Shown in pieces: positions 25,106 to 31,978 of a stretch of DNA of 37,216 nt. The stretch is from a bacterium (GTDB lineage: Bacteria; Patescibacteriota; Patescibacteriia; UBA1558; S5-K13), in assembly GCA_029555085.1 (NCBI GenBank), contig JAKPTO010000026.1:1-37216 (forward strand), written 5' to 3'. The notes under the pieces are model-generated. The model saw only the letters and a list, made by a program, of their open reading frames with translations, did no database searches and was not told the DNA's origin. The position numbers and the translations under genes are program-made. How positions within the stretch are numbered: position 1 is the stretch's first letter; each line of letters opens with the position of its first letter.

Positions 25106-26665
25106 ATGAAAAAATTTATTCCAATAATAATACTTTCAATATTTCTCATTATATTAAGGATTCCTTTTGTGAGTCACTATTTATTTGATTGGGATGCTGT
25201 TCAACTTGCCATGGGAATGGATCATTTCGATATATCTCTTCACCAACCACATCCACCGGGATATTTTCTTTATATATATTTTGCAAAATTCATAAATATA
25301 TTTTTGAATAATCCTAACTTGGCAATGATAGTTGAAAATATCATATTATCAATTATTGGATTAATAATTTTCTATAAAATTTCAAAAAAAATATTTAAAG
25401 ATGAATTTTTAAGTATTTTATCCTCGCTGATATTTATTACAAATCCATTTATATGGTTTCACAGCGAATTTCCAAATGTTTACATGATAGACTTTTGCTT
25501 TTCTTTAATTTATTTCTATTTATCATATTTAATAATAATTGAAAATAAAAATTTGCTATGGTTATTTTCAACGCTACTTGCTCTTGGGATTGGTTTTAGA
25601 CAAAGTTTAATAATATTCTTTTTGCCAATTTATATTTACACTTGCTTTTTTAATTTTAATTTTTCCAAGAAGAAAATTTTAAAATTATTATTCAATATTT
25701 TAATTTTTGCTTTTGTGCTTTTATTGTGGCTTATTCCAAATTGTCTTGTAATGGGTGGTCTTGATAAATTTATAAATATTTCTAAAAATCAATTTCTATC
25801 AGCTTCAAAACCAACATCAATATTTTCTTTTGCAAAAATAGAAGCACTGTTAAAACAATTTTTCAACACAACAAAAATATTATTATATTCCGCTAGTCTA
25901 TTATCAATATTTTCATTAATTGCAATTTTTTCTAAAAAAATAAAAATATCCAAAAAAAATTCAATTATTTTTTTACTATGCCTACTTCCATCTTTTTTAT
26001 TTTACTCATTTGTTCATTTAGGAAAAATTGGATACATAATGACAATAAGTGGAATTTTTATGACTCTTGGAATTTTTGCTATAAATAAATTATTTAAAGA
26101 AAGATCTCAGATTACAATAATGTTTTTTATATTCGTTCTACAAATTCCTCTTTTTATATATGGAATAGATGGTTTTATTAAAAATAAAATTTTTCTTATA
26201 AATGTATCCCCCTACGATGTGTCTTATTTAAATTTAAGAAATAGTGACTCGAGAATTAAAAGAACCTTATATGAAATTAAAAAATATAACCCAGACGATA
26301 CAATTTTAATAACTGAAGCAGATAGCCCATATATAATCCCAAAATCAAATTTCATAAAAAATATGAGACTTGGCGGATATTATTTACCGGAATATAATTT
26401 ATATAATATTTTTAATGATGGGGTAAAGAAAAAATATTATTATATAAACAACAAAAACACACGATTAATACATGATTTTCAAATACAAATTCCTCAAAAC
26501 ACTAAAAATGTTCTTCTTGTTACAGATAATTTTAATTACGATATCTATGATTTTAAAAAATATCCGAAATTTGAAGAAGTGTTTTATATGAACATTGAAA
26601 ATCAAAATGAGTTTGAATATATTGGTTATAAGTTTATAAAAAATCAAAACAATAACCACTATTGA
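25106..26665 (+). CDS. Polytopic membrane protein, probable GT-C fold (GT39/ArnT-like) glycosyltransferase
   Basis: VSHYLFDWDAVQLAMGMDHFDISLHQPHPPGYFLYIYFAKF followed by many TM helices. Confidence 0.65.
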   Translation: MKKFIPIIILSIFLIILRIPFVSHYLFDWDAVQLAMGMDHFDISLHQPHPPGYFLYIYFAKFINIFLNNPNLAMIVENIILSIIGLIIFYKISKKIFKDEFLSILSSLIFITNPFIWFHSEFPNVYMIDFCFSLIYFYLSYLIIIENKNLLWLFSTLLALGIGFRQSLIIFFLPIYIYTCFFNFNFSKKKILKLLFNILIFAFVLLLWLIPNCLVMGGLDKFINISKNQFLSASKPTSIFSFAKIEALLKQFFNTTKILLYSASLLSIFSLIAIFSKKIKISKKNSIIFLLCLLPSFLFYSFVHLGKIGYIMTISGIFMTLGIFAINKLFKERSQITIMFFIFVLQIPLFIYGIDGFIKNKIFLINVSPYDVSYLNLRNSDSRIKRTLYEIKKYNPDDTILITEADSPYIIPKSNFIKNMRLGGYYLPEYNLYNIFNDGVKKKYYYINNKNTRLIHDFQIQIPQNTKNVLLVTDNFNYDIYDFKKYPKFEEVFYMNIENQNEFEYIGYKFIKNQNNNHY

Positions 26666-26690
26666 CAAATTTATAATAATAACCTATACT
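26662..26690 (+). promoter_or_regulatory. Near-consensus sigma70-type promoter for the 26.7-kb transcript
   Basis: TTGACA-N17-TATACT; -35 overlaps the stop codon of the upstream CDS. Confidence 0.8.
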
Positions 26691-26696
26691 AACCTC

Positions 26697-26886
26697 ACTA
26701 TTCAACAGGAGGATTATGGTAAATTTTTTAGCAGGGGCGCGAAACCCCAATTTCAAATTCTCATTGGAGCAAATGAAGATTGATATTTATAGGGCACACA
26801 GAGAGACCTCCCATAATACTACCTCCTCCGAAAAAATGGTCCTGCTCAGACCAACCTGATGGGAGTGCCCACCATCAGGTTTTTAA
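26697..26886 (+). ncRNA. Candidate structured small RNA of unknown family (or sORF mRNA)
   Basis: GC-rich island. P1: AGGAGG+ATTATGG (26707-26719) with CCATAAT (26811-26817) + CCTCCT (26822-26827). Hairpins GGGGcgcgaaaCCCC, TCATT/AATGA, TGGTC/GACCA, then an intrinsic terminator. Confidence 0.7.
26854..26884 (+). terminator. Intrinsic terminator of the small RNA
   Basis: ACCTGATGG-gagtgccca-CCATCAGGT-TTTT. Confidence 0.85.
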
Positions 26887-26969: not shown

Positions 26970-27971
26970 TCAATCCAAATATTTGGCTTTATTTATTTTG
27001 TGCTCATCAAAGGTTCTACTAAATATGGTATTTCCTGTTTTTGGATCGGTTAAAAAATAATTATAATCCGACGCTAAAGGATATATTGAGGATGTTATTG
27101 AATTAAGCCCTGGATTATTTATTGGCGATGGTGGAAGATCTTTATTTATATAAGTATTATATGGGGATTGAATTTTAGTATCCTCATAAGAATACTGGGG
27201 TTTATTTTCGCCTAATATATATGCTAATGTAGCGCATGATTCTAAAGCTTGCCCATATTTAATTCTATTCCAAAATATACCAGAAACTATTTTCATATCA
27301 TCCTGACTTCTAACTTCTTTTTCTATAATTGAAGCCATTGTAATAATTTCATCTATTGATTTTCCTTGATTTTTAATATCTCTTCTCATTTGTTCTGTTA
27401 ATTTATCATCAAAATTGCTTAATAATTTATTTATTACATCATAACAAGTTGAATTTTTATAAACTCTATAAGTATCTGGAAATAAATAACCCTCTAAATC
27501 TGTATTTTTTGGTTTTTGTTTTATAAAATCATAATCATAATCATTTGATTTACTTAAACTGCTCCACTCTTCTTCACTGCAAAATCCCTCTGCGTTTAAA
27601 TAATCACCTATTTGTTGAAGGTTCCAACCCTCGATGATTTTGATTTGCTTTTCATTAAAACTCACGCCTCTTGATTTTTTTATTATTAAATTCGAGATCT
27701 CAATTGAATTCATTGAATCAGATATTTGAAAAGTTCCGGGCATTATATTTCTATATTTTCCCGAGAGTTTCATATATAAATCAAAGAAAAAAGCATTTTT
27801 TATTAAACTGTGCAACTCTAAATTTTGAGCTACTTGATATGATGACTCTCCTTCTTTTATTGTAAATTCTGTTTTTATATTATTATTTATTGGAAAAAAC
27901 AAAGCATTAAAAAATAAATAGCCACCAATTGCTATAATTAAAAATATAATCAAGTAAATAATCTTTCTCAT
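26970..27971 (-). CDS. mltG: Endolytic murein transglycosylase MltG (YceG-like)
   Basis: EGWNLQQIGDYL, LEGYLFPDTYRV, TMASIIEKEVRSQDDMKIVSGIFWNRI, INKDLPPSPINNPGLNSITSSIYP. Confidence 0.93.
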   Translation of the reverse strand: MRKIIYLIIFLIIAIGGYLFFNALFFPINNNIKTEFTIKEGESSYQVAQNLELHSLIKNAFFFDLYMKLSGKYRNIMPGTFQISDSMNSIEISNLIIKKSRGVSFNEKQIKIIEGWNLQQIGDYLNAEGFCSEEEWSSLSKSNDYDYDFIKQKPKNTDLEGYLFPDTYRVYKNSTCYDVINKLLSNFDDKLTEQMRRDIKNQGKSIDEIITMASIIEKEVRSQDDMKIVSGIFWNRIKYGQALESCATLAYILGENKPQYSYEDTKIQSPYNTYINKDLPPSPINNPGLNSITSSIYPLASDYNYFLTDPKTGNTIFSRTFDEHKINKAKYLD

Positions 27972-31186: not shown

Positions 31187-31978
31187 TTATATTAAAGAAT
31201 TGCCTCTCATCTCATTTGGTTTTGATATGCCCATAACTTTCAATATTGTTGGAGCCATATCATAAGTATTACCGGCTAATATTTGCTGATTTAATTGTTT
31301 TGAATGATTGTGATTTACAAAACTTTTATCTTTCCAAATTTTCGAAATCATAAAAAGGGGAACAAAATTATTGTCCTTGTTTGTGGAAGTATTTGATGTT
31401 ATAAAAATAGCCCCATTAAAAGTTAAAATCGTATCAACTATAGTCTTAACTTTTGAAGAAAGTATTTGAGACACCCTGTCAATATTATTATTCATAAAAT
31501 TTGGATATGCAATAACGGCAAAGTCATATATTTTTTTCTCTATTTCCTTTAAAAACTTTAAAGTTATATTACTTGCCATCATATCTGTATCGTTTATATA
31601 ATTATCAGATTTTGTTTCACTTATAAGTATTTTATTTACTTTTTGATCGCTTATTTTTTTATTATTGTTAAAAAAATAAGAAATGTTTGGGTATAATTCA
31701 GATTCAGCAACATAAAGCTGTTTTAATCCTGCATCACTTATAACATCCTGCAATGATACGCGCACTAATTCATCTTTTATATAAGAACCAGTCCCGAGTT
31801 CTATATAAGAATTCCACGGATAATCAATATTTGTATCAGTGGATCTTAGCATAAAAAATGGAAAAATATTTGCTAAGGTTTTAAAATATAAAAAATTATT
31901 TGTATCACTTGACAAATAATTTATATCAAAAGAATCTATAATTATAAGACATATTGGTTTTAATCTAGATTTATCCAT
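31187..31978 (-). CDS. Degenerate GpmI/alkaline phosphatase-superfamily paralog (probable pseudoenzyme)
   Basis: Collinear with the adjacent GpmI: LIIIDSFD vs LIILDGWG; LKQLYVAESELYPNISYFFNNN vs LRQLYISESEKFSHVTYFFNGG; DMAPTILKVMGISKPNEMRGNSLI vs DIAPTILDVMDIKKPSQMTRNSLI. Confidence 0.8.
   Translation of the reverse strand: MDKSRLKPICLIIIDSFDINYLSSDTNNFLYFKTLANIFPFFMLRSTDTNIDYPWNSYIELGTGSYIKDELVRVSLQDVISDAGLKQLYVAESELYPNISYFFNNNKKISDQKVNKILISETKSDNYINDTDMMASNITLKFLKEIEKKIYDFAVIAYPNFMNNNIDRVSQILSSKVKTIVDTILTFNGAIFITSNTSTNKDNNFVPLFMISKIWKDKSFVNHNHSKQLNQQILAGNTYDMAPTILKVMGISKPNEMRGNSLI

Follow-up and report, generated by a model that had tools for sequence, protein, structure and literature searches.

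A promoter-led, GC-rich unit (about 190 nt) from a Patescibacteria genome: a candidate genus-specific small RNA

A small transcription unit with its own promoter and terminator lies between two convergent genes in the window (the whole stretch of DNA that was analysed, 37,216 nt, contig C5:1-37216 of the 1.02 Mb host genome G000). We favour its reading as a genus-specific, autonomously transcribed noncoding base-pairing sRNA of about 190 nt over that as an orphan small mRNA, and rate the chance that this is correct as about even. The promoter, the terminator and the position of the unit are kept in a sister species (G001), whereas its interior has changed far more quickly than the genes on either side; what is kept inside is the CU-rich block CCTCCCATAATA and a hairpin, GGGG/CCCC. 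Constant transcription signals and a single short conserved block in an otherwise variable sequence are typical of rapidly evolving base-pairing sRNAs. The unit is a lineage-specific small transcript and not a new class of conserved structured RNA, because it has diverged even within the genus, unlike the 6S-like RNAs of these genomes, which are conserved across genera. To our knowledge, very little is known about the small RNAs of Patescibacteria.

Locus, composition and predicted folding

The features of the locus are as follows.
25106-26665, + strand: 519-codon membrane-protein gene, upstream flank of the unit
26662-26690, + strand: sigma70-type promoter TTGACA-N17-TATACT, 11 of 12 consensus matches, kept in G001
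26697-26886, + strand: predicted transcript, about 185-190 nt, start placed 7 nt past the -10 box
26707-26719, + strand: 5' strand of helix P1, AGGAGGATTATGG, which is also a perfect Shine-Dalgarno (SD) sequence and start (AGGAGG-ATT-ATG); absent in G001
26716-26859, + strand: 47-codon ORF MVNFLAGARNPNFKFSLEQMKIDIYRAHRETSHNTTSSEKMVLLRPT, its TGA within the terminator stem; no homologs, no codon signature
26735-26749, + strand: hairpin GGGG-CGCGAAA-CCCC; G001 counterpart GGGG-TGGTTGCA-CCCC
26808-26819, + strand: CU-rich block CCTCCCATAATA, complementary to GGAGG-type SD sequences; the sole long exact block in common with the G001 RNA
26811-26827, + strand: 3' strand of P1, CCATAAT-(acta)-CCTCCT, anti-SD-like by sequence
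26837-26853, + strand: hairpin TGGTC-CTGCTCA-GACCA; at the same place in G001, TGGG...GCTC...CCCA
26853-26886, + strand: intrinsic terminator, stem AACCTGATGG/CCATCAGGTT, loop GAGTGCCCA; AACCTG/CAGGTT stem kept in G001
26970-27971, - strand: convergent gene, downstream flank, a putative mltG as judged from its sequence

An earlier, sequence-only reading of this DNA had proposed an independently promoted structured RNA at this place. The promoter and the terminator at the 3' end of the unit (stem strands 26853-26862 and 26872-26881) are both present as it described them, and the occurrence of the same signals at the same place in G001 bears out an independently promoted unit. The -35 box shares bases with the upstream stop codon. 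No further gene follows on the + strand; the downstream neighbour is read from the other strand and so leaves the unit no target in cis.

The GC content is 41.8% from just past the -10 box to beyond the terminator, compared with 27.3% for the window and 28.2% for the genome, in agreement with the GC-rich island of about 190 nt that had been described. That such an island is a signature of structured noncoding RNA did not hold up as a specific argument, because the short SD-led ORFs of G000 are equally GC-rich. Islands of equal strength occur at 173 places (1.7% of the genome), mostly inside or adjoining long ORFs. In AT-rich Patescibacteria genomes, GC islands with strong promoters mark conserved RNAs as well as fast-evolving SD-led short genes, and the island alone cannot separate the two.

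All three of the shorter hairpins proposed earlier (GGGG/CCCC, TCATT/AATGA and TGGTC/GACCA) are present. P1 is formed by AGGAGG (26707-26712) with CCTCCT (26822-26827) and by ATTATGG (26713-26719) with CCATAAT (26811-26817), leaving a bulge at 26818-26821; the CCATAAT is part of CCTCCCATAATA. A 13 bp helix with one small bulge of this kind was found in only two of 300 dinucleotide shuffles, so the proposed helix exists and is rare by chance; it is nevertheless missing in the sole homologous locus, that of G001. The pseudoknot suggested between GGGCAC (26792-26797) and GTGCCC in the terminator loop (26865-26870) fared less well: the complementarity is exact, but a 6 nt complement to the loop arises in 11% of shuffles and the pairing is missing in G001. 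The absence of both pairings from a homologous locus had been named in advance as evidence against the proposal, and coming from a single diverged homolog it is weak evidence. The description of the RNA as structured was not upheld by stability, since the interior without the terminator gave z = -0.38, with 97 of 300 shuffles as stable or more so. A kissing loop between GAGCA (26766-26770) and the GCUC of the 26837-26853 hairpin can be drawn in both species and was rejected, as it is found in 38-50% of shuffles, 38% being the value for the window RNA.

Database searches and the counterpart in a sister species

The unit matched no family in Rfam 15 at gathering or permissive thresholds (6S, SRP, RNase P, tmRNA, raiA, LOOT etc.); the best hit was a low-complexity match to the PyrG leader (E = 0.39), under the gathering score. 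This agrees with the earlier failure to recognize a tmRNA, RNase P RNA, SRP RNA or 6S RNA and extends it to every other Rfam family. The Rfam 6S and small SRP models match nothing in the whole G000 genome and therefore the missing match does not mark this RNA as either. Like 6S RNA (RF00013), the unit is an independent gene of about 190 nt with a single promoter; unlike 6S RNA it lacks an Rfam 6S match and a rod with a central bubble, and other rod-like, 6S-like RNAs are present in G000. Searches with BLASTN and tBLASTn in 189 relatives returned the unit itself only, and a DNA search with the query labelled B gave short chance matches only. The pattern CTCCCATAATA...GCTC was scanned in 31 relatives; its three extra matches lack a comparable promoter-led intergenic setting and were set aside as chance. 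Nothing usable was found in the literature on CPR small RNAs and 6S.

The one homolog was located by synteny, between the same two genes in G001, a Patescibacteria MAG of the same genus, which places the window organism in that group too; the counterpart lies on a low-coverage contig (coverage 2.55); a contig scan with alignment of the flanking membrane protein likewise gave this contig only. Both units have TTGACA-N17-TATACT, the GGGG/CCCC hairpin, the block CCTCCCATAATA and the AACCTG/CAGGTT terminator stem, and in both the GC content is 42-43%. Of the predicted pairings, only this hairpin and the terminator stem are common to the two. P1 and the region of the SD and ATG are missing in G001 or replaced by A-rich sequence. 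The two RNAs are identical in 52% of alignment columns, compared with 78-79% for the flanking genes. The similarity of the interiors is modest and above chance (6 of 1000 shuffles reach the global score and 14 of 1000 the local one). Without its terminator the G001 RNA is more stable than its shuffles (z = -3.25, 0 of 300). With no SD or ATG start and one long open frame that extends past the terminator, it is probably noncoding in its present form; a resemblance between the two species' frames (SHN..K.V.L.P) was too weak for use. In G003, of the same family and a different genus, the two flanking genes abut with no unit between them, and the stretch examined beyond mltG in G002 shows no such unit.

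Coding and noncoding readings of the unit

The earlier reading had overlooked the 47-codon ORF, which starts three bases after AGGAGG. The order of promoter, SD, start, short ORF and terminator is that of a small-protein gene, and an SD followed by an open frame of at least 40 codons in this arrangement was obtained in 0.4% of shuffles. We regard a standalone small mRNA, with a strong promoter, an 18 nt leader, an SD, a 47-codon orphan protein and a terminator overlapping the stop, as a serious though somewhat doubtful alternative. A scan of G000 (consensus hexamers only, 99% of its length) yielded 16 promoter-SD-short-ORF units including that of the window, against one, eight and three with three control hexamer pairs. 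Their ORFs, of 20-110 codons and with a GC content of 0.24-0.45, exceed the genome in GC, and most have no G003 homolog; in about half of the units a terminator is found near the stop. Examples in G000 are C5:120620 (+), C41:36454 (-), C30:25940 (+) and C47:24753 (+), each with a near-consensus promoter, AGGAGG or GGAGG and a GC-rich orphan ORF, often with a terminator. Three members were queried in G001-G003; one has a 36% identical match in G001 and two have none at E <= 1, so that orphan status is normal for the set. The window unit resembles the others in its strong promoter, AGGAGG/GGAGG 3-7 nt before the start and short GC-rich ORF, and differs from them in having the shortest spacer (3 nt), the highest third-position GC (0.51), no codon signature and an SD that is not kept in G001.

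The codon usage of the ORF is like that of shuffled open frames (z = -0.07), whereas among the 15 other members of the set 13 score above 0.2 (0.28-3.4, the remaining two 0.28 and -0.08); at 47 codons the test is weak, because two of the 15 likewise score near zero. The frame and start, too, speak against a small mRNA, as they are not kept in G001, although the set member with a G001 homolog keeps both GGAGG and the start codon there (matching strand, read by eye). No protein homolog was found in the 189 relatives, phages or plasmids. The predicted full-length fold hides the SD and start almost completely, although the same is predicted for several other members of the set. If the transcript is an mRNA, P1 would be either a chance helix or a translational lock, concealing the start site as soon as the full transcript has been made. 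A dual-function transcript, acting as RNA and mRNA, is possible.

Two further explanations carry much less weight. A non-functional or insulating transcript, in which the promoter and terminator are remnants lying between convergent genes and enclose an unselected interior, would account for the fast divergence of that interior and for the absence of the unit in G003 and from the mltG end in G002; we consider it improbable, as in both species the GC content stays far above the 28% of the genome, the promoter remains close to consensus, and the folding of the G001 RNA is significant. Slightly less probable still is a conserved, structured RNA of housekeeping type or with a cis-regulatory role, in which the terminator-loop pseudoknot is functional. 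The exact GGGCAC/GTGCCC complementarity and P1 speak for it, and it is largely refuted by the lack of an Rfam match, the ordinary stability of the interior, the frequency of the loop pairing in shuffles and the absence of P1 and the pseudoknot from G001. Moreover, the real small RNAs of this lineage are 70-79% identical at family distance, against the far lower identity of the window RNA at genus distance.

The noncoding base-pairing sRNA is favoured by the G001 locus with the same promoter, terminator stem and 12-mer, by the noncoding-looking, structured G001 RNA and by the rarity of P1. Against it stand the average stability of the window RNA, the absence of P1 from G001, the fact that only two sequences are known, the low coverage of the G001 contig and the low chance frequency of the ORF arrangement. 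Of the features of such an sRNA, namely its own signals and a conserved seed, the promoter, the terminator and one 12 nt block are common to two species only. As a base-pairing sRNA it would act in trans. An unpaired CU-rich segment (CCUCCC; CCUCCUCC in the window species) may pair with the AGGAGG SD of a few SD-bearing mRNAs, and in the window species P1 (AGGAGG...CCUCCU) would provide an intramolecular cover for this segment. AGGAGG precedes just 1.8% of long ORFs in G000, and an anti-SD RNA would therefore have a limited target set. An sRNA that selectively silences the few short, fast-evolving genes led by an SD and is covered by its own P1 AGGAGG is conceivable from this complementarity, and we think it unlikely; the step from sRNA to anti-SD regulator is one that we infer. 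The staphylococcal RsaA and RNAIII are C-rich (UCCC-type) anti-SD sRNAs. Like them, the unit has a promoter and a terminator of its own as well as a CU-rich segment that complements the SD; unlike them, it has putative targets only, its CU-rich segment is partly paired in P1, and there is no sequence relation. A true anti-SD regulator would give a first indication that the SD-led minority of genes in Patescibacteria is under sRNA control.

Other small RNAs of these genomes

Several promoter-led RNAs were noted in passing, and two 6S-like RNAs conserved between genera look more interesting than the window transcript. One is a rod-like RNA, 79% identical between genera (L156, G000:C20 487-650 +; L135, G003:C14, minus strand from 27276), with a strong promoter, a central bubble and ATATTTCTGCATCC/GGGTGCAGTAATAT as its closing stem; a search of G000 with the Rfam model for 6S at E <= 10 did not detect L156. 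The other (L208, G000:C41 about 31515-31700 +; L103, G003:C1:124001 +) is also rod-like and 71% identical; its closing stem, TATATTTCTG.../...AGTAATAT, resembles that of the first. The two are possibly a 6S paralog pair.

In the L150-L217 region, L179 (G000:C43:9254 +) and L092 (G003:C15:726 +) are a promoter-led conserved RNA (70% identity across 91 nt) in which TATCTTCTCTC and GGGAGAAGAT form a long stem. The promoter-led RNAs L191 (G000:C5:58695 +) and G003:C8:46026 (-) start with GGGGATGT...TTTGATGCAT and GGGGATGTC...TTGATGCAT, respectively, and these starts are tmRNA-like by eye; ARAGORN reported no tmRNA in G000. G003 also holds a promoter-led RNA at C3:82371 (-), for which no G000 counterpart was found, and a LOOT RNA (RF03000) at C3:83400-83528.
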